A stretch of 64,000 nt of DNA, from NCBI RefSeq assembly GCF_001420005.1, contig NZ_LJAK01000003.1, positions 186,001-250,000 on the forward strand. The letters are read 5' to 3'. The notes beneath the pieces were generated by a model. The model did not search any database, had not been told where the DNA came from, and saw only the letters and a program-made list of their open reading frames with translations. Below are positions 22,117-49,809 of this stretch, one piece after another (position 1 is the stretch's first letter; every line of letters begins with the position of its first letter). Both the position numbers and the translations under genes were made by a program. Source of the stretch: Loktanella sp. 3ANDIMAR09 (lineage in GTDB: Bacteria > Pseudomonadota > Alphaproteobacteria > Rhodobacterales > Rhodobacteraceae).

Positions 22117-24324
22117 ATGACGATGAGCGGACGCTACGCAGCACTTAGCATTCTGGCACTTGCGGCTGGACTGGCCGGCGGTCTTTCGGCCGAACGATTT
22201 TACTTCAACCGCGATGATGCCACGGACGACACAGGGCCAGAGATCCTGTATTGGGTCGCACCGATGGACGCGAATTTTCGCATGGACACCCCCGGCAAAT
22301 CGCCCATGGGCATGGACCTGATCCCGGTTTACGCAGGCGACGCACCCGCGGCGGACCCGTCAACAGTCACCTTATCCCCGGCGGAAATCAACGCCATCGG
22401 CGTGCGCACGGCCGTTGCCACCGCGCAGGACATTTCGCAGACCATCCAGACTGTCGGCTATGTCGGCTATGACGAGCACCTGACCAGCCATGTTCACACC
22501 CGCGTCGAAGGTTGGATCGAGGACCTCGAGGTGCGTGCGATCGGTGATCTTGTGGAAGCGGGAAATTTGCTGTTCTCGATGTTCTCTCCTGAAATTGGAT
22601 CAGCCAGCGCGGACCACATTCGCGCCCTTGAGGACGGGAATAGCCGTATCGTCGAAATTTCGCGCAACCGCCTGCGCAGCGTTGGCATGTCCGACCGCCA
22701 GATCGAAGAGATCGAGTCCACCCGCGAAGTTGCCCGCAACCTGGCGGTCTATGCCCCGCAAGACGGCGTCGTCATCGGGATCGAGGCAGCGGATGGCATG
22801 TTTCTGCAACCCAATACGCGTGCGGTTTCTCTGACCGACCTCGCGACCGTCTGGCTGGTCGTCGATGTGTTCGAGCGTGATATCGACCGCCTGACCGACG
22901 ATATGACTGCCGCAATCCGGTTCGACCATATGAATGGGCGCGTCTTCGAAGGCCGCGTCGACTACATTTATCCAGAGCTCGACGCCAAGACGCGAACACT
23001 GCCCGTGCGACTGGTCGTGGACAACGCCGAAGGATTGTTGAAGCCCAACATGTTTGCCTCTGTCGCGCTGTCACCCGACGCCTCGCGCCTTGCACTGACC
23101 GTCCCGACAGAGTCGATTATCCGCACGGGCAGCGCGGAGCGTGTTATCTTGAAAACCGGCGAAGGCACCTTTGCACCACGCCTGGTCACCACCGGCCTGC
23201 GCGACGATTTCGACGAAGGCGGCCGCACGGAAATCGTGCAGGGACTGGCGGCCGGCGACGAAGTCGTGGCCTCTGCTCAGTTCCTGATCGACAGCGAAAG
23301 TGCCCTCAGTGCGGGCTTAATGCGTATGGCACCGACGGACGCGGCGCCCGCAAAGGGTGCTGGAACTCTGATGGCCTTCGATCCGGACACCAGAATGGCG
23401 ACGATCAAACACGCAGCGCTCGATGTAATCGGCTGGCCAGCGATGACGACTGACTTTCCGGTTCGCGCCGACGTAGATGTGGATCGGATGACAAACGGAC
23501 AGGACGTGGCTTTTCAGATCGCTCGGGGCGCTGGCGGACTGCTGTATCTCTCCGATCTGGGTCGCGACGACGGCATCGCCGCGACCGGGACGGGCGTGGT
23601 CGAAGCCGTCACCGCCGACGGCAAGTTAACGATGAACCACGACCCGATCCCCGACTTGGGCTGGCCCGCGATGGTGATGGACATGCCCGTGATGGGCATA
23701 GATCCGGCCGGCGTCACGGTCGGCACGCCCGTAAAATTTGATCTGGCAAAAGATGGGGATACCTATCTGATCGTCGACGTCCGCCCTGCGGATGGTTCGA
23801 TGGAAATGGCCATGGCAGAAACCCCGGCAGCCTCGCCAGACCCAGAGTCCGCCGCAGCGATAACAGTTACGGGCACGATCGACGCCGTCGATGTCGCCGC
23901 CCGACGCGCCACCATCACCCATGGCAATATCACCGAAACCGGCATGCCCGGTATGACGATGGATTTCGATCTAACTGACGCTGTTGACCCCGCAACCTTG
24001 CCTATCGGCGTGGAGACCACCCTGACATTCGACCGTCCCGATGGTTTGACGATGGTGCTGGCGCAAGTCGAAGCACCGGAACCTCCAATGGAAGTGTCCG
24101 GCACGATCAACGCCATAGACCCCGATACAGGCATGGCCAACATCACCCACGGTCCGATGGTAGCCATTGGGATGCCTGGCATGACAATGGACTTTGACGT
24201 GGCATCGACGCTGGCGGCGGTGGATCTGCCGACAGGGCAGGACGTGACGCTTCTGATGGCGCGCAACGCGGATTTCAGTCTGACGTTGGTCGGAATCGCC
24301 AATGACCGGCAGGTCGGCCAATGA
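22117..24324 (+). CDS. cusB: CusB-like RND adaptor with heavy-metal-binding N-terminus and four CusF-like C-terminal repeats
   Basis: The 735-aa protein is far longer than E. coli CusB (~400 aa). Residues ~1-25 are the membrane anchor; ~43-72 form the heavy-metal-binding domain (YWVAPMDANFRM ... KSPMGMDLIPVY). Residues ~75-410 are the membrane-fusion hairpin and barrel. Then come four CusF-like domains at about 414-481, 488-560, 580-657 and 658-731. Their metal motifs are HAALDVIGWPAMTTDF, HDPIPDLGWPAMVMDM, HGNITETGMPGMTMDF and HGPMVAIGMPGMTMDF. CusF binds Cu(I)/Ag(I) through His, two Met and a Trp. Repeats 3 and 4 replace the Trp by Met, and repeat 1 has lost one Met. The stop overlaps cusA as ATGA. 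Confidence 0.9.
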   Translation: MTMSGRYAALSILALAAGLAGGLSAERFYFNRDDATDDTGPEILYWVAPMDANFRMDTPGKSPMGMDLIPVYAGDAPAADPSTVTLSPAEINAIGVRTAVATAQDISQTIQTVGYVGYDEHLTSHVHTRVEGWIEDLEVRAIGDLVEAGNLLFSMFSPEIGSASADHIRALEDGNSRIVEISRNRLRSVGMSDRQIEEIESTREVARNLAVYAPQDGVVIGIEAADGMFLQPNTRAVSLTDLATVWLVVDVFERDIDRLTDDMTAAIRFDHMNGRVFEGRVDYIYPELDAKTRTLPVRLVVDNAEGLLKPNMFASVALSPDASRLALTVPTESIIRTGSAERVILKTGEGTFAPRLVTTGLRDDFDEGGRTEIVQGLAAGDEVVASAQFLIDSESALSAGLMRMAPTDAAPAKGAGTLMAFDPDTRMATIKHAALDVIGWPAMTTDFPVRADVDVDRMTNGQDVAFQIARGAGGLLYLSDLGRDDGIAATGTGVVEAVTADGKLTMNHDPIPDLGWPAMVMDMPVMGIDPAGVTVGTPVKFDLAKDGDTYLIVDVRPADGSMEMAMAETPAASPDPESAAAITVTGTIDAVDVAARRATITHGNITETGMPGMTMDFDLTDAVDPATLPIGVETTLTFDRPDGLTMVLAQVEAPEPPMEVSGTINAIDPDTGMANITHGPMVAIGMPGMTMDFDVASTLAAVDLPTGQDVTLLMARNADFSLTLVGIANDRQVGQ

Positions 24325-27300
24325 TCCCCGCCATCATCCGCGCGTCGATCGCGAACCGGTTTCTGGTGCTTGCGATCTCCGTGATGATCGCCATCGCGGG
24401 CGTCTGGGCCGTGCGCGCGACCCCCGTCGACGCAATCCCCGACCTGTCCGATGTGCAGGTCATCATCAAGACGCCCTATGCGGGCCAAGCCCCGCAGGTG
24501 GTCGAGGATCAGGTAACTTATCCAATCACCACGGCAATGCTGGCGGTGCCGGGTGCCACGGATGTGCGCGGATTTTCGTTCTTTGGCGACAGCTACGTCT
24601 ACGTCGTGTTCGAGGATGGCACGGACCTTTACTGGGCGCGGACCCGCGTGCTGGAGTATCTTGGTCAGATCACGTCGAACCTGCCCGAAGGGGTGTCGCC
24701 GGAACTGGGGCCGGACGCGACGGGCGTTGGCTGGATCTACCAATATGCGCTGATCGACCGGACCGGGAATCACGATCTGGCCGAGTTGCGCACGCTTCAG
24801 GACTGGTTCCTGAAATACGAACTTCAGACCGTCGATGGCGTATCAGAGGTCGCGACCATCGGCGGTATGGTCAAGCAGTATCAGGTCGTCATCGACCCTA
24901 ACAAGCTGCGCGCCTACGACCTGACGCTGGCGCAAGTGCGCGATGCCATCCAGGGCGCGAACCGCGAAACCGGCGGCAGCGTGATCGAAATGGGCGAGGC
25001 GGAATATATGGTCCGCTCGACCGGATACGTGGACGAGTTATCCGATCTGGCCAGTGCGCCGCTTATCGTCAATGCACGCGGTGCGGCCGTCACGCTGGGT
25101 GACGTGGCCGACATCCGGCTGGGGCCGGAACTGCGGCGCGGTGTGGGTGAATTCGACGGTCAGGGCGACGCCGTCGGCGGTGTCGTGATCCTGCGCTGGG
25201 GGGGCAACGCGCTGTCCACGATCAAGGCCGTCGAGGCGCGGATCGAGGAGCTGCGCCCCAACCTGCCCGAGGGCGTCGAGATTGTCACGACCTACAACCG
25301 CGCCGGTGTGATCGAACGCGCCATCGAAAACCTGTCCGACAAGCTGCTGGAAGAGTTTATCGTCGTTGTTCTGGTTTGTGCGGCCTTCCTTTTGCACATC
25401 CGGTCATCGCTGGTGATCGTGCTCTCATTGCCATTGGGTATTTTCGCCGCCGTCATCATCATGAAGCTGCAGGGGGTGAACGCCAATATCATGTCCCTTG
25501 GTGGCATCGCCATCGCCATCGGCGCAATGGTCGATGCCGCCATCGTCATGATCGAGGCGATGCACAGGCGCATTGAAAAAGAGCCCCTGACGCCGCAGAA
25601 CAGGTGGCGGATCGTCACCGAATGCTGCGAGGAAGTCGGCCCGGCCCTGTTCTTTTCGCTGGCTATCATCGCGGTCAGTTTCCTGCCCGTGTTCGTGCTG
25701 GAAAGCCAGGAAGGCCGCCTGTTCAAGCCGCTTGCGTTCACAAAGACCTACGCCATGGCCGCCGCGTCGATCCTGTCGATCACATTGGTCCCTGTGCTGA
25801 TGGGCTACTTCGTGCGTGGCCGGATCCTACCGGAACACAAGAACCCGCTGAACCGCTTTGTCATCTGGATCTACCGACCTTTTCTGGATGCCGCAGTTGC
25901 TTGGCCCTATGCGACGACATTGCTGGCCGTAGCGCTGGTAGGGTCAATGGCGTGGCCCCTGCAGCGTATCGGCACAGAGTTTATGCCCGAACTGAATGAG
26001 GGTGATTTCCTTTACATGCCGTCGCTTTATCCCGGCGTATCCATCGGCAAAGCGCGCGAGGTGCTGCAACAGACCGACCGACTGATCGCCACAGTGCCCG
26101 AAGTGCTGACCGTCCACGGCAAGCTGGGCCGCGCCGACAGCGCCACCGACCCTGCGCCCCTGACGATGATCGAGACTACTGTCCAATTGCGGCCAGAGGC
26201 AGAATGGCGCGATGGTATGACGATGGACGGCATCCGCGCCGAACTGGACCGCGCCGTGCAGATCCCCGGTGTCACCAACGTTTGGATACAACCGATCAAG
26301 AACCGCATCGACATGCTGGCGACCGGCATAAAAACCCCCGTCGGCGTCAAAATATCTGGCGCTGACCTGACCGTGATCGAAACCATCGGCATCGCGGTGG
26401 AACAGGCTGTCGCTGGGATCGACGGCACAGCCTCTGCCTATGCCGAGCGCCCCGTTGGTGGTCGCTTTATCGAAATCAACGTCGATCGCGATGCGGCCGC
26501 CCGATACATGATGAGCGTCCGGGATGTGCAGGATGTCGTGCAGACCGCGATCGGCGGCATGCAGGTGTCAGAAAGCGTCGAAGGACTTGAACGCTTTCCG
26601 ATCAACCTGCGCTATCCACAGGAATGGCGCGACAGCCCCGAACGTCTGCGCGATCTGCCGGTCGTCACGCCGTCAGGTGCCCATATCCCGTTGGGATCGA
26701 TTGCAGAGGTCGACATCGTCGACGGTCCCGGCATGATCCGTTCCGAAAACGCGCGGCGCACCGGGTTCGTCTTTATCGATATCGCAGGGCGCGACTTGGG
26801 CGGCTACGTGAACGAGGCGCGCGATCTTGTCGCCCGCACCGTCGATCTGCCGTCGGGGTATTCCATCGCCTGGTCGGGACAATACGAATACATCGAACGG
26901 ATGCAGGACCGGCTGACGCTCGTAGCGCCGGCAACGCTGCTGATCATCACGCTCATGCTGTTCATGGCCTTCAGCCGCGTGACGGAAGTGGCCATCATCC
27001 TTGCCGCTTTGCCAGTGGCCTTGGCGGGTGGGGTCTGGCTGATCTGGTATCTCAGCTTCGACATCTCCGTCGCGGTGTTGGTCGGATTTATCGCTCTGGC
27101 CGGGGTCGCTGTAGAGACCGCCATCGTCATGCTGCTTTACCTCAATCTCGCGTGGGACAAGCGCAGGAACCTGGCCGCAACCCAGCAGCGTGATTTGACG
27201 CCGATGGATGTCGAACAGGTCGTGTTCGAAGGCGCGCTGCTGCGCGTTCGGCCCAAGGTGATGACCGTGGCCACGATCTTCGCCGGGCTCATCCCGATCA

Positions 27301-27512
27301 TGTATGGCCATGGCACCGGCTCAGAGATCATGCAGCGCATCGCCGCCCCGATGGTCGGCGGTATGGCGACCGCGACCCTGCTGACCCTGCTGGTCATTCC
27401 CGCAGTCTTTGTGATCTGGAAACGCTTTGCGTTGAACCGGGTCAATGCCGAACGACGGACCGCAGCGCATGACGCGTCCGCTGTCCCACCCCAAGCGGTG
27501 CCGGGCGAATGA
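24321..27512 (+). CDS. cusA: CusA-like heavy-metal RND efflux pump
   Basis: The 1063-aa protein has the full RND layout: TM1 (MIPAIIRASIANRFLVLAIS), two large periplasmic loops and two sets of TM helices. The heavy-metal (HME) signature is clear in IAIGAMVDAAIVMIEAMHRR (proton-relay Asp in TM4) and in FMPELNEGDFLYMP. This trimeric pump drives Cu(I)/Ag(I) from the periplasm to the outside using the proton gradient, with CusB as adaptor. An outer-membrane CusC is not in the window. It overlaps cusB by four bases. Confidence 0.93.
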   Translation: MIPAIIRASIANRFLVLAISVMIAIAGVWAVRATPVDAIPDLSDVQVIIKTPYAGQAPQVVEDQVTYPITTAMLAVPGATDVRGFSFFGDSYVYVVFEDGTDLYWARTRVLEYLGQITSNLPEGVSPELGPDATGVGWIYQYALIDRTGNHDLAELRTLQDWFLKYELQTVDGVSEVATIGGMVKQYQVVIDPNKLRAYDLTLAQVRDAIQGANRETGGSVIEMGEAEYMVRSTGYVDELSDLASAPLIVNARGAAVTLGDVADIRLGPELRRGVGEFDGQGDAVGGVVILRWGGNALSTIKAVEARIEELRPNLPEGVEIVTTYNRAGVIERAIENLSDKLLEEFIVVVLVCAAFLLHIRSSLVIVLSLPLGIFAAVIIMKLQGVNANIMSLGGIAIAIGAMVDAAIVMIEAMHRRIEKEPLTPQNRWRIVTECCEEVGPALFFSLAIIAVSFLPVFVLESQEGRLFKPLAFTKTYAMAAASILSITLVPVLMGYFVRGRILPEHKNPLNRFVIWIYRPFLDAAVAWPYATTLLAVALVGSMAWPLQRIGTEFMPELNEGDFLYMPSLYPGVSIGKAREVLQQTDRLIATVPEVLTVHGKLGRADSATDPAPLTMIETTVQLRPEAEWRDGMTMDGIRAELDRAVQIPGVTNVWIQPIKNRIDMLATGIKTPVGVKISGADLTVIETIGIAVEQAVAGIDGTASAYAERPVGGRFIEINVDRDAAARYMMSVRDVQDVVQTAIGGMQVSESVEGLERFPINLRYPQEWRDSPERLRDLPVVTPSGAHIPLGSIAEVDIVDGPGMIRSENARRTGFVFIDIAGRDLGGYVNEARDLVARTVDLPSGYSIAWSGQYEYIERMQDRLTLVAPATLLIITLMLFMAFSRVTEVAIILAALPVALAGGVWLIWYLSFDISVAVLVGFIALAGVAVETAIVMLLYLNLAWDKRRNLAATQQRDLTPMDVEQVVFEGALLRVRPKVMTVATIFAGLIPIMYGHGTGSEIMQRIAAPMVGGMATATLLTLLVIPAVFVIWKRFALNRVNAERRTAAHDASAVPPQAVPGE

Positions 27513-31552: not shown

Positions 31553-32935
31553 TCAGAACGAAGCAAAGTGCGTGTCCTGATCGGCCACGGGCCTCCCGCT
31601 GAAATCTGCATCGTCCGGAATCCGACCGAACGCGATTTTGGCGCCAACGTAACCGCCCGGGATTTCGGTTTGCGGTCCGATGGAGAGGGCCTGGGGGCCC
31701 AGCTTGGCACGCAAGCCGTCCATCATATCGCTGACTTGTTCCCACCTTTTCCGGTCCGCGGTATGGCACGTGCCACCTGAATCGCTGGGCGACTCCGCAA
31801 ACAGATCTGACATCACCTCGTTTTTGCCGATCAGGCCGTGGATCATCACGCTGACTGACCGCGGCTGAAACGGCATCCTGCGCTCTGCCTCTGACAGACC
31901 ACCGGCAAGTGCGACCAAGAACGTATGGTCATCACGGGCGGGCAGGAACGATGTCTCCCAGTCCCAGCGCTGACCGGCGGACCGCTTGTTTGACGCCGTC
32001 CTTGCGCCCCCTTTAAAGCTCAGCGTCAGTCGCGTTGCGCGCACGTCAGCCCGACGCACCCGGCGACCAGCGCTTTCCGTCAGCATCCGGGCGCAGATCT
32101 TGACCTTCTCCGGATTGCGCCAGTCCCGCGGCAGGATGCGACTATGCCCGAACATGCTCTTTTGTGTCGGAGGACGCTCCAAATGATACCCATGCAGCCC
32201 GTTCCAGAATCTCTCGCCTTCGACGTTACCCCAGATCGCGCGCGCCTGTTTCGGTGCCAATGCCCAAAGACCGTCAAAGTCGCGCACATGTGCTGCGTCC
32301 AGCCGTGCGCGCATGCCTTTGGAGATACCGGGCAGATCTCCAAGGTCAACGCATGAGAGGGCTTGCGGCAAGTCGCACGCATGGATCAGCTTAAAACCAT
32401 CCGGCTTGTGCATCTCCGCCGCGATCTTGGCCAGCAATTCCGTCGGTGCCATTCCGATCGAGCAGGTCAGCACCTCGCTGAACGCTGACGCGAGCGCGGT
32501 CTTCAGTTGTCGCGCCAGATCCTCGGCGCGGTTGCCTTCTGATGGCAGTAGGTTGCAGACGACCTCGTCGATCGATCTGACGTGCGCAACTGGCACGACC
32601 GTCTCGATGACGTCGAGGATACGCTTGTGCAGGCGAACATAAACATCGTGCCGGGCCACGACGAAGATCATATCTGGGATGATCTCTCGCGCTTTCGCGA
32701 TGGTCGCACCGGACTTTACGCCGAGGGCCTTGGCCTGACGGCTGACCGCGATGCATCCGGTATGCGGTGAATCCAAGGGGACTACGCCCAGCGGGCGGTC
32801 GCGAAGGTCGGGATTGAAGTGCTGTTCGGCAGAGGCAAAGAAGCTGTCGAAATCAAGATACAGCCGCTCGATGCCACGCGCCTGACCGCGCGGGTCGTGT
32901 TTCATCCCGTTGCTCCGGAAGTGGGTGGTCATCAT
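31553..32935 (-). CDS. Y-family translesion DNA polymerase (DinB-like)
   Basis: The ~460-aa protein has the catalytic acids of active Y-family polymerases: YLDFDSFFASAEQ (first Asp) and VRSIDEVVCN (Asp-Glu). Helix-hairpin-helix sequence LGDLPGISKGMRARL and a little-finger domain follow. Because both acidic sites are kept it is not ImuB, whose sites are lost. The start is uncertain among ATG 32935, 32932 and 32905. The gene is divergent from umuDC with the LexA box at 33048-33062 between, so it is probably SOS-induced. The C-terminal ~90 residues are an extension I cannot assign. Confidence 0.88.
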   Translation of the reverse strand: MMTTHFRSNGMKHDPRGQARGIERLYLDFDSFFASAEQHFNPDLRDRPLGVVPLDSPHTGCIAVSRQAKALGVKSGATIAKAREIIPDMIFVVARHDVYVRLHKRILDVIETVVPVAHVRSIDEVVCNLLPSEGNRAEDLARQLKTALASAFSEVLTCSIGMAPTELLAKIAAEMHKPDGFKLIHACDLPQALSCVDLGDLPGISKGMRARLDAAHVRDFDGLWALAPKQARAIWGNVEGERFWNGLHGYHLERPPTQKSMFGHSRILPRDWRNPEKVKICARMLTESAGRRVRRADVRATRLTLSFKGGARTASNKRSAGQRWDWETSFLPARDDHTFLVALAGGLSEAERRMPFQPRSVSVMIHGLIGKNEVMSDLFAESPSDSGGTCHTADRKRWEQVSDMMDGLRAKLGPQALSIGPQTEIPGGYVGAKIAFGRIPDDADFSGRPVADQDTHFASF

Positions 32936-33047
32936 AGCCTCTGCGTCATTTTGAACAAGCTCACGATCTACTGAGGGGTCCGGCAAAGATTCCGAGACGG
33001 TCGGCCGCGGCTCGGTTGACAGGTCCGACACCGGTAGCAGATATGTA

Positions 33048-33062
33048 GAACAGAAGTAGAAC
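33048..33062. promoter_or_regulatory. LexA (SOS) box shared by the polymerase gene and umuDC
   Basis: GAAC-agaagta-GAAC is, on the other strand, GTTC-N7-GTTC, the exact alphaproteobacterial LexA target. It lies 16 bp from the umuD start and ~113 bp from the polymerase start, so one site can control both directions. Confidence 0.9.
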
Positions 33063-33078
33063 ATGCAAGGATTCGCAG

Positions 33079-33513
33079 ATGCCAGTCTTCCAAATCGACG
33101 CCCCCGTTCTGGCGGAGGGTCACGTCATTCCATTGCCGCTCCTTCGGGCCAGCGCAGGGTTTCCGTCGCCTGCGGGAGACGATCTCGAAGACGAGATCGA
33201 CCCCATCGCTTGGGTCGTGCGCCATCCGGCATCAACGTTCTGGTGGCGTGTTGAGGGCGACTGTCTGTGGGATGTCGGCATACGTGACGGTGACATCATC
33301 GCAGTGGACCGCGCTGGCAAACGCCGCCTTGGACGAGCCGTTCTGGCCGTAGTCGAGGGGGCTGTTACGGCAAAGATCCTGCGCAAACGAGAAGGTAAGT
33401 ATTTTCTGGCACCGGCCAACAGTCGTGAGCCATTTCCGGAAATCGAGCTGTCGGAAGATAGCGAGATCTGGGGCGTCATCGCCGGGATCGTGCGGCGGTA
33501 TGATCTGGCGTGA
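33079..33513 (+). CDS. umuD: UmuD-like S24 peptidase with Cys in place of the catalytic Ser
   Basis: The 144-aa protein matches UmuD in length and order. The self-cleavage site is kept ([13 protein letters not shown], Ala26-Gly27). The core reads [22 protein letters not shown], where UmuD and LexA have GDSM. Cys62 (TGT at 33262-33264) therefore replaces the Ser nucleophile. The general-base Lys is present (VTAKILRK, Lys99). UmuD cleaves itself with RecA filaments and then joins UmuC as polymerase V. A Cys may still act as a nucleophile, or the protein may be locked uncleaved. Stop overlaps umuC as GTGA. Confidence 0.88.
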
Positions 33514-34781
33514 CACGGCGCATCGCGATCAGCGACAGCGCGAACTTCTATGTGAGCGCCGAGCGGATCTTTGACCCCACCTTGAAGAACGTTCCGGTCA
33601 TCGTGCTGTCAAACAACGACGGCTGTGCGGTGGCCCGCAGCGACGAGGCCAAGGCACTTGGTATCAAGATGGGCGAACCGCTGCACCTTATCCGGGACAA
33701 GGTTGAAGCGCATGGGATCCGCGTGTTCTCGTCGAACTATACGCTTTATGGCGACATCAGCCGCCGGGTGGTCGAGGTCTACGAGGATTACACGCCAAAC
33801 GTCGAGATCTACTCCATCGATGAATGCTTTCTGGACTTCGCTGGATTCCGGGATCGCACCGCGCATGCACGCGCGCTGCGCCGCGATGTGCTGCGGCGTG
33901 TGGGTGTTCCGGTGCGGATCGGCATTGCCCCGACGAAAACGCTGGCAAAGTGCGCTAATGACATCGCGAAGAAGAATCCGATCTTTGCGGGCGTGTTGGA
34001 CATAATGGACCCGACGCTGGCGGATTGGCTGCTGCCCATGGTGCCGGTCGGTGACATCTGGGGCATCGGCCGCAAGACCGAAGCCAAGCTCCGCGGTATC
34101 GGGTTCAATACCGCTGGCGATCTTCGCGACATGCCGCTGCGCCAGGCGCGGGCGCTGGGAACCGTCGTGCTGGAGCGGACGGTTCTCGAACTGCAAGGCG
34201 AGGCCTGCATCGCATTCGACAAGGTCGAACCGCAACGCAAGGGCATGGCCGTTACCCGGTCGGCCGGCACACCTATGACTGACTTCGACACGCTGTTCCA
34301 AGCCATCACGGCCCACGCAACGCGCGCGGCCGAAAAGCTTCGACAGCATGGTCTGGTCGCGGGCACCCTGACGGTGTTCTACCACACCAACCGGCACCGG
34401 CCTGACCGTCCACAGTATGCCGGATCGCGGTCGACGCGGCTGACGCCGATGTCGTCGGACACGTTTGACCTCGTGGCCGCAGCCAAGCGCTGTGCGCTCG
34501 CGGCCTGGCCGAAGATCGACACCCAGAGGTTCGGATTTACGAAAGCCGGGATCATGCTGGATGACCTTCTGCCATTCGAGGACCGGCCGCGCACGCTGTT
34601 CGACAGCGTCAAACCGACGTCCCCGGCACTCATGTCAGCGTTGGACGATGTGAACGGGCGGTTCGGAAAAAAGACGATGGTGCTCGCCAGCGAAGGCATG
34701 AAGAGGTCATGGCAGTTGCGCGCAGATCATCGCAGCCCGCGCTATACGACGCGACTGACGGATCTGCCGGTGGTGAGGTAA
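33510..34781 (+). CDS. umuC: UmuC-like DNA polymerase V catalytic subunit
   Basis: The 423-aa protein is full length for UmuC. It has the palm motifs [15 protein letters not shown] (first Asp; Asn and Ala are swapped relative to the usual DxNxFY order) and [10 protein letters not shown] (Asp-Glu). [15 protein letters not shown] and [15 protein letters not shown] (helix-hairpin-helix) follow, with a C-terminal little finger and UmuC-type tail. GTG 33510 overlaps the umuD stop. It performs translesion synthesis with cleaved UmuD during the SOS response. Confidence 0.92.
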
Positions 34782-35060: not shown

Positions 35061-37334
35061 GTGTATCCAATCGATAAGCTAAAAGCATACTGCAACAAGG
35101 ATTATTGCGTGGCGATGGTGAAAAACGAGCTTTACATCCACGGATACGATCTGACTGACCAATGGCACGATCAGGACGAGGATACAGACGAAGGCATTGT
35201 CGACTGGGACGCGGAATTCCAAGCTAAGAAGACCAAACTTGAGACCTTCCTGGGTTGCCGCGATATCGATATTGCTCTCGGAAAAACCGCTCATCAGTGC
35301 CTTACAGAAACCCTCGTATTCAAGAACAGATATCCGACTATCGAACTTGCCGCGCTGGAAGCATTTCAGGCGCTGTTCCTGACAATGCCCATCCATTCCA
35401 GCAGTGTGCCTACGTCGCCCGGGAATTTCTCCAGGCACTGGAAGGCCTTGGCCCGCTTGTTCCAGGCGTTCTCAAAGAAGCAATCTAATCTGGTGGACCC
35501 GAAAGACCCCATCAAGGTTCTAACGTGGCGCACCAAGTTGCAGACGATCTACTACAGATTTCCCTTCGACCAGGACGTTTGTGCAGAAATCGCCGCTGAT
35601 ATTCTCGGACGGATCGACAGGAAGGGAAACGTCGCTACAGACTTCGCTACCCAGTTCAAAATGCTGATCGGGATTTCGCAGCTGGTCGCGAAGCGCCTTC
35701 ATGATTTCATGTCACACATTGGCCAGATGATGAGGGCTGTCTCTCAGGAAGAAACAATCGCTCACATTGAGTATTTCTGCTCTCTCAGCCCAGCCACAAA
35801 TCGAATGTGGGAACGCTGCAAACTGAAGCAGCGGCCCCTTGATGACATGAAACACCTGGGCTACCAGCTCTCCGAGCTTTCGACGCCTTGGTTGTTCATT
35901 CTTAAGAAGGATGAACTGATCAGGGAGTTTGGGACGGAATGCGTTCCGTTGATTAAATCGCTGTCCCTTCGCCCCGGCGAGTTGGCGGGAAAGAATTTTG
36001 AGCATTTCGTCATGGACAACCCGGTATGGGATAAGCCGTTCATCGCACGCCCTGATGGTAACTTCTTTCTTGCAATCCAGTATTTTCCGTTCAGTTACCC
36101 ATTCAGGATTATTGAGCGGCTTATTGTTGATGGCAAGACGGACTTGCTGGGTGCGTACAGCGACGCCCGCTCTGACTTCCTTGAGGATGCGATAGCTGCA
36201 ACATTGAAACAGGCGATGCCAAGCGCTGAGATATACCGCAGCGTGCTATGGGATGATCCGGACACAGGTATTAGATACGAGAACGACGTTGTTGCAGTTG
36301 TCGGAAATTTCATTTTTGCATTTGAGGCGAAGTCCGGCAAGATCAGCCCGGCGGCACGACGCGGCGCGGAAAAGAGCCTGCTGAAAAACGTTAAATCGTT
36401 GTTCGTTGAACCTTGGCAGCAGTCGCAGAGGCTTCAAAGATACCTGAACGAACATGGCAAGACCGCGAAGCTTTGGGAAAAAGTCGGCGGGCGACCCGTG
36501 AAGATCGACCTGGACAAACCGAAAATCGCATTCAGCTACAGCGTGTGCTTGGAACATCTTGCCGCCCTGTCAAGCAGCAAGCACTTCTTTCTCGAAGCCG
36601 GACTCGTGAGCAATAACTACATCTGGGCACCGGTCCTTTCCATTGGCGAACTGTTCATGCTCTCGAAGTTCCTGGATTCGGAAGTCTCGTTTGTTCACTA
36701 CCTGACCAGACGGTTCCGGATCGGAGAGCAATTTGACTTCGACGGCGACGAGCAGGACCTGTTGTCAATGTACCTGACCAATGGTTTCTGTCTTTTCGGA
36801 GAAGCGCCGCCGGATAAGCGGATCATGTTCCGCGATTCCGACGATACGGTAAGGGTTAACCGGACGCCGAATCCGGAGAGAGCCAGAGCTGAAGTTATCG
36901 GGATAAGCCTGCCACCGATTTGGACCAAGACAGTCGAAGAAATCTACACAAGCACGGTCGGCACCGTGCGCCATAGGTTTGATATCATCTGCGCGATTCT
37001 GAACCAGCCGCCACCCTCGCTGCTCGAACTCCAGAAACGCATCCGAAGTTGGAGGCGCGGAGGCGGCGGTAAAGAGCCGCGAGTTTCCAACTACGCCGTC
37101 GGCTCGCAGCAATACGTTGTGGCGACCATGTTCCTGAACAAGCCCATTTTGGCCGAGGATGACCTCAGAAACGAAGCGCGGATGCTTGCCATGGAGATTT
37201 CGAGCAATTTCGAGGGAATGACCGACTGCGCGATCTTCCTCTATCTTAAGAAGTCAAAGCAGATGACCCATGACGGCGTGTTCTTCTTCCGGGCAGGGCC
37301 ACAAGATCACGGAAAGGCTGCACTTTTCTTTTGA
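35061..37334 (+). CDS. Large protein with a PD-(D/E)XK nuclease-like motif, function unknown
   Basis: The 757-aa protein starts at GTG 35061 or ATG 35115. I do not recognise the whole. The first ~380 residues are helical and include a nearly all-alpha region rich in charged and aromatic residues. At residues 405-427 there is RYENDVVAVVGNFIFAFEAK followed by SGK: Asp409, then Glu422-x-Lys424, a good match to the D...ExK core of the PD-(D/E)XK nuclease fold (as in NERD and restriction-like nucleases). The C-terminal ~300 residues are unassigned. It is monocistronic in an AT-richer island with no methylase nearby. A defence nuclease is plausible but not shown. Confidence 0.75.
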   Translation: MYPIDKLKAYCNKDYCVAMVKNELYIHGYDLTDQWHDQDEDTDEGIVDWDAEFQAKKTKLETFLGCRDIDIALGKTAHQCLTETLVFKNRYPTIELAALEAFQALFLTMPIHSSSVPTSPGNFSRHWKALARLFQAFSKKQSNLVDPKDPIKVLTWRTKLQTIYYRFPFDQDVCAEIAADILGRIDRKGNVATDFATQFKMLIGISQLVAKRLHDFMSHIGQMMRAVSQEETIAHIEYFCSLSPATNRMWERCKLKQRPLDDMKHLGYQLSELSTPWLFILKKDELIREFGTECVPLIKSLSLRPGELAGKNFEHFVMDNPVWDKPFIARPDGNFFLAIQYFPFSYPFRIIERLIVDGKTDLLGAYSDARSDFLEDAIAATLKQAMPSAEIYRSVLWDDPDTGIRYENDVVAVVGNFIFAFEAKSGKISPAARRGAEKSLLKNVKSLFVEPWQQSQRLQRYLNEHGKTAKLWEKVGGRPVKIDLDKPKIAFSYSVCLEHLAALSSSKHFFLEAGLVSNNYIWAPVLSIGELFMLSKFLDSEVSFVHYLTRRFRIGEQFDFDGDEQDLLSMYLTNGFCLFGEAPPDKRIMFRDSDDTVRVNRTPNPERARAEVIGISLPPIWTKTVEEIYTSTVGTVRHRFDIICAILNQPPPSLLELQKRIRSWRRGGGGKEPRVSNYAVGSQQYVVATMFLNKPILAEDDLRNEARMLAMEISSNFEGMTDCAIFLYLKKSKQMTHDGVFFFRAGPQDHGKAALFF

Positions 37335-37761: not shown

Positions 37762-39510
37762 ATGCCCGATACTTTTCAATCTAGTATCTCTACTTGGTTC
37801 AGCAGCTTAAAGACCTGGTGGCTTGAAAACCTCACACATTACACGCGTGATAATTACGATCCGTTTCTCGATGTAGGCGGCTTTCTGGGAATCCTTGCGT
37901 TTTCAGTTGCGGTGTTCACACTCAGCAGCCCCAAATTTCAAATCAGACAAGCCACAGCAATGGTGCCATTTAGACCTGTGTTCTTCGGAACGCTCGTTTT
38001 GTCGGGCATTATCATGTTCGTAATTGAAGGTCTCATTTTGTATGGCATCCGAATTCCATCATTCATGAACCCGAATACCGTAAACTATCTGATTACAACG
38101 GTTATCGCGCTGCTGATACTGTATTGGATGAAGATCTGCTTCATCATCCCTCCACGTTTTTCTCGATTTACTGCCCATCGATTCTTTCGGGAAACATATT
38201 TCTACATTGCGAACGGCAGCAGAGAAGAAATGCTGGCATTGGCACGCGAACTCATGCGCGAAGCACCGAGACTAATACGCCATACGCCGCGCAGAAAGCG
38301 ACATCCTATAGATAGCAAAAAACCGGTCAAATTTTCAAAGCTACAAACTGAAGCTCATTTTCTCAACGGGCTTCTATCAGACACAAGATTTTGCGAAGTT
38401 GTTGCGGAAGAAATCCCCTCGTTTCCAGCACATTTGGTGGAGGTGGCGGTCGATCTAGAAAGGCTGGATGTTCCAATACACCTCATGGTGAAGCGTACAG
38501 TCGTGGCAATGTTATCCAAACCCGGATCGGCCTTGAGGGTAGAGAATGAGTGGCTTGGCCAGGGCTACATTGGAGAAGCGAAACCAATCACGCGCTCAGT
38601 ATTTTGGAATTGGCACTTGCTCGAAAGTTACGAGCTGGGCTTGGAGTCACCGCTAGACCTACACTACCCTTACGCCCGCGACTGGGACAAGGATACTTGG
38701 AGAACGTACTTTGGTATGGCGCGGCTATACGTAGATGGTTTGACGTCCAAGGGGAGAGCGAACTGGCATGCTCAAGGTATCCGCTACATTCTGACAACGA
38801 CGGAAAAAGCCTTTGAAAATATCGGCTCCGAAGAAAAATACAGTGATGTGTTCAGCTCTCATAACCCAACCTGGATCGCAAACGAGGCAAATGACTTTTT
38901 GAAAGATTTAGTTAAGGCATTTGATAAAGCAGATGGTTGGGTCGACTTCAACAGGAGTGATGACTTTCGTTACGGGAGTGATCTATCCTCGGATCTTGCA
39001 TCTCTTTATTTCGAAGTTATTTTCAACGCCGCTCAGATCAATACCAAGGAATTCAGAATGTGGGACGTCCAGCACAATACTGTGTGGTCTCCCATCAACG
39101 GCCATGAGGTGCAAGATACGAAGCTGATGAAAATGGTTCGTCGAAAGCTTCGTCGGATGATTTGGGATGAAGTAAAGCGGATGGACGAATTCGGTCCTAA
39201 CTACAAGGGAGCGGGATACACCCGTTTCTGTCTGAACGTTCTAGGGTTCTATGATGAGAAAATGCACCGCAAAGATCCCCTGGAGAGAGATTTTTGGCCG
39301 CTTGCGAAAGTCTTGTCCAATTGGGTGAAGAAGAACTATCAGACCATTGCGGTCTCGCATCCGCCAGTTGCCAAAGCGATGCTTCCCGCCAATATTGAAT
39401 ATGATCCGGTATCTCAGATCCTAGTCAGGTCGCGAGATGACACTCTTACTGGTGTGCCACGATTGAAAGCTTTCCCGCTTGATCCGGCGCGACCCAACTC
39501 TGACACTTAA
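37762..39510 (+). CDS. Membrane protein with large cytoplasmic domain, unknown function
   Basis: The 582-aa protein has three membrane helices near the N-terminus (~residues 40-58, ~72-95, ~107-130), then a ~450-residue soluble part rich in Trp, Tyr, Arg and Lys, with no motif I can name. Base composition is AT-rich relative to its neighbours (codons such as AAA and TTT are frequent), indicating foreign origin. It stands alone, 240 bp before the Cys-rich peptide gene. No catalytic motif seen. Confidence 0.7.
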   Translation: MPDTFQSSISTWFSSLKTWWLENLTHYTRDNYDPFLDVGGFLGILAFSVAVFTLSSPKFQIRQATAMVPFRPVFFGTLVLSGIIMFVIEGLILYGIRIPSFMNPNTVNYLITTVIALLILYWMKICFIIPPRFSRFTAHRFFRETYFYIANGSREEMLALARELMREAPRLIRHTPRRKRHPIDSKKPVKFSKLQTEAHFLNGLLSDTRFCEVVAEEIPSFPAHLVEVAVDLERLDVPIHLMVKRTVVAMLSKPGSALRVENEWLGQGYIGEAKPITRSVFWNWHLLESYELGLESPLDLHYPYARDWDKDTWRTYFGMARLYVDGLTSKGRANWHAQGIRYILTTTEKAFENIGSEEKYSDVFSSHNPTWIANEANDFLKDLVKAFDKADGWVDFNRSDDFRYGSDLSSDLASLYFEVIFNAAQINTKEFRMWDVQHNTVWSPINGHEVQDTKLMKMVRRKLRRMIWDEVKRMDEFGPNYKGAGYTRFCLNVLGFYDEKMHRKDPLERDFWPLAKVLSNWVKKNYQTIAVSHPPVAKAMLPANIEYDPVSQILVRSRDDTLTGVPRLKAFPLDPARPNSDT

Positions 39511-44443: not shown

Positions 44444-44610
44444 GCCCGATCAAATATACGCTCCACTATCGCCCGAAAGGCAGCGCGCTGATCAAGCGCA
44501 CCTTCAATGAAATCTTGCTGGATGCTCAAGAGTGCCACGCTCATGCCTGCGATCAAAGTCAGGCATGGCAGCGGTCCCTCCCACGCGTTCGACGCAGTCC
44601 GCTGAAGTAA
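44440..44610 (+). CDS. Small ORF between tnsA and tnsB
   Basis: This 56-aa frame overlaps the tnsA stop as ATGA and has GGAGAG upstream. It encodes a basic peptide (MSPIKYTLHYRPKGSALIKR..., with CHAHAC in the middle and an Arg-rich end). Coupling suggests it is translated. Function is unknown; it could be a DNA-binding accessory factor or the remnant of a larger gene. There are 113 bp after it before tnsB. Confidence 0.45.
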   Translation: MSPIKYTLHYRPKGSALIKRTFNEILLDAQECHAHACDQSQAWQRSLPRVRRSPLK

Positions 44611-44723
44611 CCTCACAGTTTTATCAACATGCCAAGTGTCCCGGCCCATCAAAACGATGGGCACCGGCTCCACTTCTGCACTCAATCGACGCCCACAGCC
44701 GTCGCAATAGAGAAAGACAAAAG

Positions 44724-46940
44724 ATGACAATGCAAATCGCCAAAGACTTCTTCGACCGGTTCCCCAGTTTCTTACTTCGCGAGCATGATCGCGTGACCAT
44801 CGACGGCTGGGTTACACGTTATGCCGGGACGCACGGAGGGTTTCTCGAATTCATGGATGCAGACAACCCGCATTTGACGGAGGTGTTTGAAGTCCAACGT
44901 TTCAATCGTCTGAACGCAGCGGGAAAAATCATCCACGAGCCTGATTATTTCCTGCACAAAATGACCAATGCCGCATCTCCGGCTATGACGTGCGACGACT
45001 CGATTGCTGAGCTGACACCTGCGCATCGCGCAAGGGTGGAGGCGAGGTATGCTTTGGTGCGCGCCTATGACGAACGCAGAATTGCGGGTCTTTTAAAGGT
45101 AAACGACAAAGCGATTGCGGCTTGCATGGATGATCTTTGTCGCGCAGCCGAAGAATACATGACCTATGAGCTTCCGGATCCGGAAGTCGCGGAGGCCCGT
45201 CGGCGCTGGAAAGAAGAGGGTGGTCGGAAGCCGAAATCAGCAGGGGTCGTGGCCCGTCCTGACGCCTGCAGTCCCCGAATCTTGAGGGAATGGACGTCAC
45301 GATACCGGCGGTTTGGCAAGTCGGGCCTGAAGGACAACGTCGAGGGACAAGGAAACACAAAGAGCCAGTTCTCGCTCGAAGAACAGGCGCTGCTTTCGAA
45401 GGTCGTGCGGGATCACTATTTCACCTTACGGCGTCCTCCTCAGACTAAAACGGTTGAAGCGGTCGCGCTTGCATTTCTGAAGGAAAACAAGATTCGCGAG
45501 GCCGAGCAGCGGCCATTGTTGCAAACACCAAGGCGCGATGCCGTCAGGCGCGAGATTGGGACCTATGGAGAGTTCGAAAAACTGGTTCTGCGATTTGGTG
45601 CCGAAGAGGCCATGCGGAAGATGCGGGCGGTTAAGGCTGGCCTAAAGCACGCAAGGCCGCTGGAGCGGGTCGAGATGGACGAATGGAAAGTTGACCTTCA
45701 TACGATCATGAGCCGCTGTGGTTTATTCGAACTGTTCGACAACGACGAACTTGAGCGCCTTGGCCTGCTTGACCCCACGCGGCGTTGGTGGGTCGTCGTT
45801 GCGATCGACAGCCGGACCCGCGTCATTCTGGGTATGGTGTTAACGAGCAATCCGAGATCGAGTGCAGCGGTTCGCTGTCTGGATATGATTGTTAGCGATA
45901 AGGGCGTAATCGCAACGGCAGCTGGAGCAGAAAGCCCATGGAATATGCTGGGCCTCCCTGAGATTCTCGCGACTGACAACGGCAGCGCTTTCAAATCAGG
46001 TGTCTTTACAAATGCATGTTCAGACCTCGGCATCCATGCGCTTCAAACCATCGCGGGCAGTCCTGGGATGCGGGGAAAGATTGAGCGTCTGTTCAGGACG
46101 GCATCGCTCTCCGCGTTGTCCGATTTGAGCGGAAAAACGTTCTCGAACGCCTATGAGAAGGGTGAATATGGTTCAGAGAAAATGGCCTGTCTGTCGGCGG
46201 AGGATCTCTCGCGCATCCTCGTGCGCTGGGTCGTAGATATTTATCACAATACGCCGCATGAAGGCCTGAACGGTCTGACCCCGCTTGAACAATGGCAGGT
46301 GGATCTCTCGAGCGGCAACTACCCTTTGCGCGCTGCCCCGACATATCGGCAGAAGCGACTGGCCTTCGGTATTCACGCGACCCGCAAAGTTCAAAAAACG
46401 GGGATTCAGGTCCTCAACGTTCAGTATCACTCAGGTGCTTTGCATGAATGGTTCCTGAAGCACGGCAATCAGTCAGTTCAGATCAGGTGGAGTAGTCGGA
46501 ACATCGGACAAATCGAGGCCAAGCTCGACTACGGATGGCTTGAGATCCCTGCCGTAGAAAATCGGTTCGATGGCGTTACTGCGCAGGAGTGGACAGCAAC
46601 AATGCGGGCATTGACGGCCAAATATGCGAAGAGCCGTGAAATTTCCGATGCCGTCGTTTTCCGTGCATTGGCCGACATTCGAGCGCTCAATTCCGAGCGG
46701 ATGCTGTCCACGGGCATCTTGGACGATGGGATGGATACAAAAGGTCTGGAACTTCTCGAGAAGCAGGCGAAAGGCAGCTTTGATATCGTGCCTGCACAGC
46801 CCGGCCTCACGAAATCACCTGACGGTCTTGGTCATTCAATTCTGCCTGTTCGACCCGCTGCACAACAGCCTCAGAAGTCCAAGCAGGCCGACCGAAAAGC
46901 GCCAGACACAAAAAATCTTTGGCTGGAGGGTAAGAAATGA
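44724..46940 (+). CDS. tnsB: TnsB/TniA-like DDE transposase
   Basis: The 738-aa protein has N-terminal helix-turn-helix regions (residues ~100-260) and an RNase H-fold integrase core with Asp319 (VEMDEWKVDL), Asp418 (LATDNGSAF) and Glu454 (MRGKIERLFR). The last two are exactly 35 residues apart, the DD(35)E spacing. A beta-barrel and a C-terminal tail (PVRPAAQQPQKSKQADRK...) that would contact TnsC follow. It binds the transposon ends and joins the 3' ends to target DNA. Its stop overlaps tnsC as ATGA. Confidence 0.88.
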   Translation: MTMQIAKDFFDRFPSFLLREHDRVTIDGWVTRYAGTHGGFLEFMDADNPHLTEVFEVQRFNRLNAAGKIIHEPDYFLHKMTNAASPAMTCDDSIAELTPAHRARVEARYALVRAYDERRIAGLLKVNDKAIAACMDDLCRAAEEYMTYELPDPEVAEARRRWKEEGGRKPKSAGVVARPDACSPRILREWTSRYRRFGKSGLKDNVEGQGNTKSQFSLEEQALLSKVVRDHYFTLRRPPQTKTVEAVALAFLKENKIREAEQRPLLQTPRRDAVRREIGTYGEFEKLVLRFGAEEAMRKMRAVKAGLKHARPLERVEMDEWKVDLHTIMSRCGLFELFDNDELERLGLLDPTRRWWVVVAIDSRTRVILGMVLTSNPRSSAAVRCLDMIVSDKGVIATAAGAESPWNMLGLPEILATDNGSAFKSGVFTNACSDLGIHALQTIAGSPGMRGKIERLFRTASLSALSDLSGKTFSNAYEKGEYGSEKMACLSAEDLSRILVRWVVDIYHNTPHEGLNGLTPLEQWQVDLSSGNYPLRAAPTYRQKRLAFGIHATRKVQKTGIQVLNVQYHSGALHEWFLKHGNQSVQIRWSSRNIGQIEAKLDYGWLEIPAVENRFDGVTAQEWTATMRALTAKYAKSREISDAVVFRALADIRALNSERMLSTGILDDGMDTKGLELLEKQAKGSFDIVPAQPGLTKSPDGLGHSILPVRPAAQQPQKSKQADRKAPDTKNLWLEGKK

Positions 46941-47962
46941 ACAACCACAACAATATTGTATCATCGAGCGGCCAGAGCACTCCCGAAATGCTAAGGGATA
47001 TCCGCTTTCAGACGGAGCACGGAAAACTGTTCAGCAAGCAAGTCTCCCGGCTGTTTAGGCCGGGAGGTGACGGACAGCCAACGTATGAGCCGGCTCTTGT
47101 GACTGCAGGAACTGAAACCAACGGGGTGATCATGATCGACGCTTCAGGTGGCGGTAAAACGACAACGATCCAAGAGGTTCTCAGCAAGTTCGACGCGTTG
47201 CAGGACAACCCGGAAACGGGGCGGCCGAGGTATTTGAAGATCAAGGTTGAAAGCCCTGCGACGCAAAAAAGTCTCGGAACAACAATTCTGGAAAAACTTG
47301 GGGTCGATCACATCGCTGAACGCGCAAAAGTCTGGGAGATCTGGCGTGCAGTCCGAGTGCGGCTGGACCGGATGGGAATTACCCTACTGTGGATCGACGA
47401 AGCGCAAGACATGTTCAAGGATACAGCTGCGACAGAAACCGACAATATGCTGAAGATGCTCAAGTCGCTGATGCAGGGCGAACACCCGGTCGTCTTGGTC
47501 CTGAGCGGAACAGAACGCTTGGGACGGATTGCCGGACTTGATCCGCAGTTGAGCCGCCGGTTTGCGAAGATCAAGCCGCGAGATCTCGAGATTGGTGCTG
47601 ATAATAAGGACCTTGAAGAGCTGGTCAGCTTTCTGTCTGGCAAGGCCGGTCTAACGTTCAATTCTGATTTCGATGTCATTAGCCGCCTCATTCACGGGAG
47701 CCGCTACAAGTTCGGGAGGGCGATCGAATCCACCATTCTCGCCATCGAAGAGGCTTTGGATCAGGATAGCTCCTGCTTGGCAGTTGAGCATTTTGAGGTG
47801 AGTTGGGGGGAGCGTGAGATCTGCGAACCAGGCCGGAACGTATTCGCGGCCGAGGACTGGATCGAAATTGAGCTGGACGTCGATGAGGATGAATACGAGG
47901 CACAACGCACTGCCGCAACGAATAAGGCTCGGCAAAAGGCCAAGCGGAGGAAGAAGAAGTGA
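46937..47962 (+). CDS. tnsC: TnsC/TniB-like AAA+ ATPase
   Basis: The 341-aa protein has Walker A DASGGGKTT (Lys74), Walker B LLWIDEAQD (Asp154, Glu155), and an Arg-finger region SRRFAKIKPR. The Lys-rich C-terminus (KARQKAKRRKKK) may bind DNA. In Tn7-like systems it links the target selector (TniQ/TnsD) to the TnsAB transposase and gives target immunity. It is coupled to both neighbours by ATGA and GTGA overlaps. Confidence 0.9.
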   Translation: MNNHNNIVSSSGQSTPEMLRDIRFQTEHGKLFSKQVSRLFRPGGDGQPTYEPALVTAGTETNGVIMIDASGGGKTTTIQEVLSKFDALQDNPETGRPRYLKIKVESPATQKSLGTTILEKLGVDHIAERAKVWEIWRAVRVRLDRMGITLLWIDEAQDMFKDTAATETDNMLKMLKSLMQGEHPVVLVLSGTERLGRIAGLDPQLSRRFAKIKPRDLEIGADNKDLEELVSFLSGKAGLTFNSDFDVISRLIHGSRYKFGRAIESTILAIEEALDQDSSCLAVEHFEVSWGEREICEPGRNVFAAEDWIEIELDVDEDEYEAQRTAATNKARQKAKRRKKK

Positions 47963-49809
47963 CTCTCCGACCAGAATTGCCAATTTGCGAAGATGAAACG
48001 CTGACGTCCTACCTCGGGCGGGTCGGTAAATTCCACTTCGACCTATCTGCGTATCGATTTCTGGATCTTATCGAGTTTTCACGTGAAAGGGCGAAATATC
48101 CGTCCCATGAAGACCTTGATCGCATCTCAGGTCTCACAGGCGTGGCAAAGGATAGGTTGGTCGATGCCGTCGCCTTGCGTGCTGAATCGCGGCAACGCCG
48201 TTATCGAGGGCAGACGTTCAGCACGGAGTTTATGAATGCCAATCAAACGTCCTTCTGTCCGTCCTGCCTGTTAGAGGATGAGAAGTTTGACAGTGCTTCT
48301 AACGGTTCAAGGGTTGCGCGCATGTTGTGGCGCGTCGAGCCCGTCCGAGTTTGCGGAAAGCACCATATTGAACTGGTCAGACGACCTAACCGATCCGTGT
48401 CCGAACAGTTTCAAGACATGGAGCTTGTCGCGCCATCGACCAAGGACCTGAAAGACCTGAGTGCGGCCGCTCGAAAGAGTTCACCTTCAGCCCTACAGGT
48501 CTACGTTGAACGCCGATTTGCGGGAGAGATTGGCCCTGCTTGGTTAGATGAGCAGGATATCGACCAAGCCGCCCGCGCCTGCGAAATGCTTGGGATCGTG
48601 TTATCGCTCGGCACTCACATCAACCTGAATAAGCTTTCAGCCAACCAACGCATTGCGGCGGAAGACGTCGGCTACGATTTTGCATGCCGAGGGCAGGAGG
48701 GGGTGACCGAAGCGCTTCGTATTTTACTCGAAAGAAAAGGCGACCGACTTGGGAAAAGTGGACCGCAATTCGTGTTTGGACGTCTCTACCAGTGGCTTCA
48801 GTTCAATGGGAACAAGCGTGAAATTGGTCCGGTGAAAGGCATCGTTCGAGATTTCGTGATCGATAATTTTCCCATCGCTACCGGAACTGAACTATTTGGT
48901 GACACGGTGCAACAGCGCAAACTCCACTCTATCGACAGCCTGTCGAAGCAGACCGGCGTTCATCACAAAACGCTCAATCGTGCTGTGGTTCTGAGCGGCC
49001 TGGCAGATGGTGATCCCGAAAATCCCGCCCTGACCCGTCCAATTCCTTCAGGTGCGGGCGAGGATCTTGCGGCCCGAATTCTGTCCGCGATCCCGCGGTC
49101 CGAGGTGTGCTCGCTATTGAACTGTAATCGCGTCCAGGGCGATCAGTTCGTCAGTTCCGGCCTGATCCCCGTGATCTGCAAAACTCCGGGGCTTACCAAG
49201 GGTGCTTTGTGCAGGACAACCAAAGCTGATGTGGAGTCGTTTTTGACGAAAATGATGTCCGCGGCCAAGCATGTTGGAGAGGCGTCAAATGGTATGCTGT
49301 CGATCCACGATGCAGCTGCGCGAAGCCGATCCCCAATCGTTGATATCACGCGTTCAATTGTCGAAGGCCGGCTGCTGCACGTCGAGACGCTCGATCCTGA
49401 TCAGAAATTCAAAGGTCTTCTTGTCAACGTGGATGAGATCGAAGAAAATCTTGTTGCGGGCGGCCGGGAAGATCTGATGTCGCGCAATCAAGCCGCCGAC
49501 TATTTGGGTATGAAAACATATGAAGCATACGCACTTACAACGGCCTTGAAGGCAGGCGAAATTCCATATCTGCGGCTGCGCCAAGTGAAGAACGGCAAGG
49601 GTGTTTGGCACGAATTTTTTGTCAGGTCAGATGTCGTCAGATTTCGGGATACCTTCGTGTCGCTTGAAGAGGTTTCACAAGCCCACAACCTCACTTCACG
49701 TTGGATGAAACCTAAGTTGGAAAAGGCAGGGATAAAACCATGGCTGCCCAAGGATCGACTGGGCGGATACTATTACCGACGATCGGATATAGACCGCGCC
49801 AGGATCTAA
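47959..49809 (+). CDS. tniQ: TniQ/TnsD-like target-site selector
   Basis: The 616-aa protein has an N-terminal TniQ domain (PICEDETLTSYLGRVGKFH) with a zinc knuckle formed by Cys100-x2-Cys103 and Cys132-x2-His135. Residues ~330-360 (SLSKQTGVHHKTLNRAV) and ~509-550 (MSRNQAADYLGMKTYEAY) look like helix-turn-helix or excisionase-type DNA-binding units. Its length is nearer TnsD than the short TniQ of CRISPR-guided elements, so direct recognition of a fixed attachment site is likely. Last gene of the operon; followed by a perfect terminator. Confidence 0.88.
   Translation: MTLRPELPICEDETLTSYLGRVGKFHFDLSAYRFLDLIEFSRERAKYPSHEDLDRISGLTGVAKDRLVDAVALRAESRQRRYRGQTFSTEFMNANQTSFCPSCLLEDEKFDSASNGSRVARMLWRVEPVRVCGKHHIELVRRPNRSVSEQFQDMELVAPSTKDLKDLSAAARKSSPSALQVYVERRFAGEIGPAWLDEQDIDQAARACEMLGIVLSLGTHINLNKLSANQRIAAEDVGYDFACRGQEGVTEALRILLERKGDRLGKSGPQFVFGRLYQWLQFNGNKREIGPVKGIVRDFVIDNFPIATGTELFGDTVQQRKLHSIDSLSKQTGVHHKTLNRAVVLSGLADGDPENPALTRPIPSGAGEDLAARILSAIPRSEVCSLLNCNRVQGDQFVSSGLIPVICKTPGLTKGALCRTTKADVESFLTKMMSAAKHVGEASNGMLSIHDAAARSRSPIVDITRSIVEGRLLHVETLDPDQKFKGLLVNVDEIEENLVAGGREDLMSRNQAADYLGMKTYEAYALTTALKAGEIPYLRLRQVKNGKGVWHEFFVRSDVVRFRDTFVSLEEVSQAHNLTSRWMKPKLEKAGIKPWLPKDRLGGYYYRRSDIDRARI

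Follow-up and report, generated by a model that had tools for sequence, protein, structure and literature searches.

LexA, UmuD, and the phage repressors of the S24 family are treated as proteins defined by a Ser-Lys dyad, which together with an Ala-Gly bond forms the conserved family signature (PMC8565304, PMC13148647, PMC12984324). An 'omega' loop positions nucleophile and base in the superfamily (PMC12984324). The closest described system is E. coli UmuD/Pol V (PF00717; PDB 1umu, 1ay9, and 8gmt), with which the locus reported here shares the fold, the position of the Lys base, the umuC operon, LexA control, and an X-Gly cleavage bond that precedes the nucleophile by 36 residues. It differs in bearing Cys for Ser60, Ala-Gly for Cys-Gly, and Ile for Lys98. 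LexA and the S24 phage repressors have the peptidase fold and the RecA-dependent logic of self-cutting in common with it, but carry DNA-binding domains and, in the described members considered, a Ser nucleophile. Cys-dependent autoproteolysis, predicted for this UmuD, is known in an SOS-associated protein from the thiol autopeptidase SRAP/YedK, whose fold and mechanism are unrelated (PMC3765255). No Cys-nucleophile UmuD or LexA was described in the literature searched, most subscription journals being outside its coverage. Cys-for-Ser variants have reportedly been engineered in E. coli UmuD (as part of monocysteine work) and in signal peptidase I.

A Cys-type umuD in a Pol V operon

The window, a stretch of 64,000 nucleotides on contig C3 of the 3.67 Mb genome of Loktanella sp. 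3ANDIMAR09, contains a umuD gene (33079–33513, + strand) encoding a 144-residue S24 peptidase-like protein, as judged by its open reading frame, Pfam, profile alignment, and Foldseek. The Peptidase_S24 domain (PF00717) scored 63 bits against a Pfam cut-off of 23.3. UmuD' (1umu) and RecA-bound UmuD (8gmt) were among the best Foldseek matches to its AlphaFold model, a monomer with a mean pLDDT of 76 and an arm below 50 whose active-site geometry is unusable. Residues were mapped by profile alignment to E. coli UmuD and UmuD' (8gmt and 1umu), which paired Cys62 with Ser60, Lys99 with Lys97, and Ala26-Gly27 with Cys24-Gly25.

As originally predicted, the codon at the nucleophile position (33262–33264, + strand) is TGT, a single-base step from an AGY Ser codon. 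The prediction had placed this Cys in a GDSM motif. The exchange of Cys for Ser was borne out, but the fourth letter is not Met: the motif reads GDCL, and its Leu is common to the Ser-type sister clade. Cys62, the sole cysteine of the protein, thus occupies the place of the catalytic Ser required in the S24/UmuD family. The window UmuD belongs to this family by descent, lies outside a strictly Ser-defined peptidase class, and is a variant of the known S24 autopeptidase and Pol V switch.

The end of umuD is overlapped by the start codon of umuC (33510–34781, + strand; Pfam IMS, IMS_C, IMS_HHH, and DUF4113), the Y-family polymerase of Pol V, and the two genes form an operon. The claim that umuC is intact was upheld, and each of 60 full-length relatives examined (60/60) retains the catalytic residues Asp9, Asp104, and Glu105. 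In most Cys-type loci an intact umuC lay directly downstream of umuD.

An alphaproteobacterial LexA box (GAACAGAAGTAGAAC, 33048–33062; GTTC-N7-GTTC on the other strand) precedes umuD. A GAAC-N7-GAAC element was found 24–36 nt upstream of umuD in nearly all Rhodobacteraceae Cys-type loci, and near-identical boxes preceded lexA (GAACAGAGGTAGAAC) and recA (GAACACAATAAGAAC) in the window genome. Because the bare motif also turns up at random (the genome has 124 matches, compared with 84 for a reversed control), the case for SOS control rests on this conserved placement. A divergent gene for a second Y-family polymerase (31553–33064, − strand; Pfam IMS/IMS_C) shares the region of the box, and in some other loci (L001, L010, L013, L014, L066, and L236) such a gene likewise adjoined Cys-type umuDC. 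As the LexA box falls inside the start of its longest open reading frame, translation of this gene probably begins near 32905; several alignments of this polymerase begin only at residues 36–59. The divergent polymerase and umuDC may share one operator.

Conservation and origins of Cys62

A scan of genome contigs yielded a sample of 68 homologous loci. Alignment, the check proposed in the original prediction, revealed Cys62 in all 47 distinct full-length sequences of the Cys clade (window included), encoded by TGC in 35 and TGT in 12. The prediction would have failed had homologues carried only Ser, whereas every homologue with at least 67% identity across its full length had Cys62, as did one Rhodobacteraceae homologue of 62% identity and, at greater distance, those of Robiginitomaculum and Hellea (L045 and L047). 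The predicted scissile bond Ala26-Gly27 (33154–33159, + strand; context S-A/G-F-P-S-P-A) and the predicted catalytic base Lys99 (33373–33375, + strand) were likewise invariant (47/47), as had been claimed for the window alone. Lys99 is the only one of the four lysines with this property, and SAGFPSPA was among the most conserved stretches, with Ala26-Gly27-FPSPA invariant.

With a median dS of about 1.7, synonymous sites in the Cys clade are nearly saturated. The median dN/dS was 0.07 over the entire gene, 0.03 across residues 25–143, and 0.39 in the N-terminal arm, while pN/pS of the body in close pairs was 0.12. By these measures, purifying selection on Cys-type UmuD is strong outside the N-terminal arm. 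Codon 62 is one step from Ser, yet toggles only between TGC and TGT, and is thus under selection to stay Cys. A pseudogene or relaxed sequence was ruled out on the dN/dS values and on motif conservation. Copies that have really decayed look different: L017 and L048 have frames broken early, and L048 reads ASF rather than AGF at the cleavage site.

The next relatives are Ser-type and 55–65% identical (Paracoccus, Brucella/Ochrobactrum, Rhizobium, and others). The Ser-type sister clade (Paracoccus, Brucella/Ochrobactrum, Rhizobium, and one genome of the same family) is 55–63% identical and shares the WWRV-x-G-x-(C/S)-L motif and a linked umuC with the window UmuD. Cys is the derived state. Besides residue 62, few positions are fixed differently between the two clades, and these cluster at the scissile bond, beside Lys99, and at the omega loop. 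Residue 25, which precedes the scissile Ala, is Ser in the Cys clade and Pro in the sister clade. Ile100 (33376–33378, + strand), next to the catalytic Lys, corresponds to Lys or Arg in the sister clade and most other UmuDs, and looks derived. Ala113-Asn114 (33415–33420, + strand), at the omega loop (E. coli UmuD 109-PMNSA), is fixed in the Cys clade and differs in the sister clade. Weaker differences were seen at positions 12, 120, and 124. These positions are hints of coadaptation, although Ser25 and Asn114 are present in other Ser-type UmuDs too.

In a survey of 385 alphaproteobacterial genomes, nearly every UmuD-like protein read was Ser/Lys (64 rows), apart from two in which the nucleophile is lost (Ala/Lys and Ala/Arg) and the Cys/Lys form. 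A second Cys/Lys lineage came from three genomes of about 1 Mb in one distant alphaproteobacterial genus; it has the motif GNCMLQAGIHSGD, a CAG cleavage site, umuC as the next gene, and a GAACN7GAAC box before it. Strongly supported branches of the UmuD tree force two origins of Cys, although the UmuD alignment, which is short, did not by itself reject a single origin (AU p 0.19). For this reason the longer partner UmuC was tested. In its tree the Rhodobacteraceae Cys clade (support 99) fell beside its Ser sister, with the second genus far away, and holding the Cys lineages together was rejected (AU p 2.3e-11). On these trees Cys arose more than once with Lys kept; a single origin would now require that umuD was exchanged between operons.

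The Ser nucleophile was otherwise nearly invariant among sampled UmuDs, which shows that Cys is rarely tolerated, or rarely favoured. A wide spread of Cys through Pseudomonadota found no support for the canonical motif: G-x-C-M...GI..GD, a pattern that excludes the GDCL form, had no match in 398 genomes, compared with 31 of 200 for its Ser (AGY) version. Cys as a general trait of host S24 proteins was also ruled out, since the LexA of the window genome is Ser/Lys. Several viral contigs bear other variants. UmuD-like proteins of L240 (about 1913–2386) and L241 (about 253–729), both open frames, have a Cys nucleophile with Arg for Lys, so a Cys does not guarantee an intact dyad; they keep the Ala-Gly site, and umuC follows in L240. 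L237, L242, L246, and L247 encode distant, repressor-like S24 proteins whose nucleophile position is Cys; of these, L237 keeps the aligned Lys and has no obvious Ala-Gly site. L179 encodes a UmuD-like protein, next to umuC, in which Arg replaces the nucleophile and the Lys alike; it is a candidate for a truly uncleavable UmuD.

Probable cleavage by a Cys/Lys pair

We consider it likely that the Pol V switch of the window functions as a Cys/Lys autoprotease, yielding UmuD' once RecA has activated it. DNA damage would relieve LexA repression and allow expression of umuDC. By homology, a RecA-ssDNA filament would then drive the N-terminal arm into the active site, where Lys99 would activate Cys62 for attack on the Ala26-Gly27 bond, and the UmuD' product would join UmuC for mutagenic lesion bypass. 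Cys is shared by an entire family of intact genes and arose more than once, so this umuD is probably a working variant of the switch, neither broken nor misread. The thiol probably alters the rate, pH dependence, or redox sensitivity of the cut while still permitting it.

The original prediction had left two readings side by side, a working variant with altered kinetics and an uncleavable UmuD that keeps polymerase V inactive. The first is favoured by the joint fixation of Cys62, Lys99, and Ala-Gly under purifying selection, by the retained LexA boxes, and by the independent origin of Cys with Lys. Were Cys62 dead, full-length UmuD might hold UmuC inactive as a damage-induced brake or serve a checkpoint role. 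The near-invariance of Ser elsewhere agrees with such a loss, and stable full-length UmuD has effects, since the uncleavable E. coli UmuD-S60A lowers UV mutagenesis and sensitises cells (PMC3901139). However, death of the enzyme would not explain why precisely Cys, Lys99, and Ala-Gly have persisted over such a time, given that Ala, Arg, or Gly would inactivate it just as well, or why Cys was reached twice with Lys kept. The high conservation of SAGFPSPA and the retained catalytic residues of UmuC also count against it. Homologues without a nucleophile side chain often lose the Lys too (Ala/Arg in L223, Arg/Arg in L179), and broken copies tend to lose other parts, whereas here all three elements persist together. 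Lys99 and Ala-Gly could still be kept for structural or binding reasons. Overall, we regard a dead Cys62 as unlikely.

Somewhat less probable still is that Cys62 redox-gates the switch, with oxidation of the nucleophile or a disulphide blocking UmuD maturation and so linking mutagenesis to both damage and redox state. A Lys-activated thiol nucleophile is generically oxidisable, and this one is the only cysteine of the window protein and invariant in its clade. The extra Cys just before the scissile Ala in the second lineage and the copper-resistance genes near the window umuDC would also fit. Against this, E. coli UmuD likewise has a Cys at its scissile bond, for which we know of no redox role, and the gene context is not common to all members. 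Neutral drift, a relic, or a sequencing error at codon 62 has in its favour that TGT is one base from AGT. The base-calling error that would have undone the original prediction fails on the presence of Cys in dozens of independent genomes under two codons, and with purifying selection added we give this explanation almost no weight.

If the working Cys/Lys reading is true, a natural, conserved, and recurrent form would show that the catalytic residue of an SOS switch is exchangeable in evolution. Such proteins would be a natural experiment on nucleophile identity, and their thiol would offer a handle, through covalent probes or redox control, on an enzyme by which mutation rate is set. Annotation rules that insist on Ser would label Cys-type UmuDs inactive. 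More speculatively, and in our view doubtfully, S24 switches may run on a Cys/Lys dyad and have come to do so several times (in the marine Rhodobacteraceae clade, the distant small-genome alphaproteobacterial genus, and perhaps phage-borne proteins), making SOS mutagenesis thiol-sensitive or differently thresholded.

Distribution and gene surroundings

UmuD is rare in the host family, occurring in 8 of 295 sampled genomes. Seven of its nine UmuD genes there were Cys-type, spread over six genomes including that of the window. Cys-type umuD was also present on a Yoonia plasmid, in several copies in some genomes, and on IMG/VR contigs, from which we infer that it is probably mobile. Roseobacter sp. 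MED193 carries both a Cys-type and a Ser-type umuDC no more than about 4 kb from one another (L011, 5001–5432 and 9090–9470).

In the window, umuDC has copper/cation-resistance genes on one side and, on the other, a TniA/TniQ-like transposition block (44532–49809, + strand). The block comprises an rve/Mu-transposase-C gene (TniA-like), a 341-residue open reading frame (46937–47962), and TniQ, and suggests a Tn7/Tn5053-like element near umuDC. The description of these UmuDs as island-borne is compatible with the metal-resistance and Tni-type genes nearby and with the patchy, plasmid-associated distribution. Two open reading frames 3' of umuC (35061–37334, 757 residues, and 37762–39510, 582 residues; both + strand) matched no Pfam family. 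On the copper-resistance side, a CusB/HlyD-type membrane-fusion protein (22117–24324, + strand) has four matches to the CusF copper-binding domain within one polypeptide, and its gene adjoins that of an RND pump (24321–27512).
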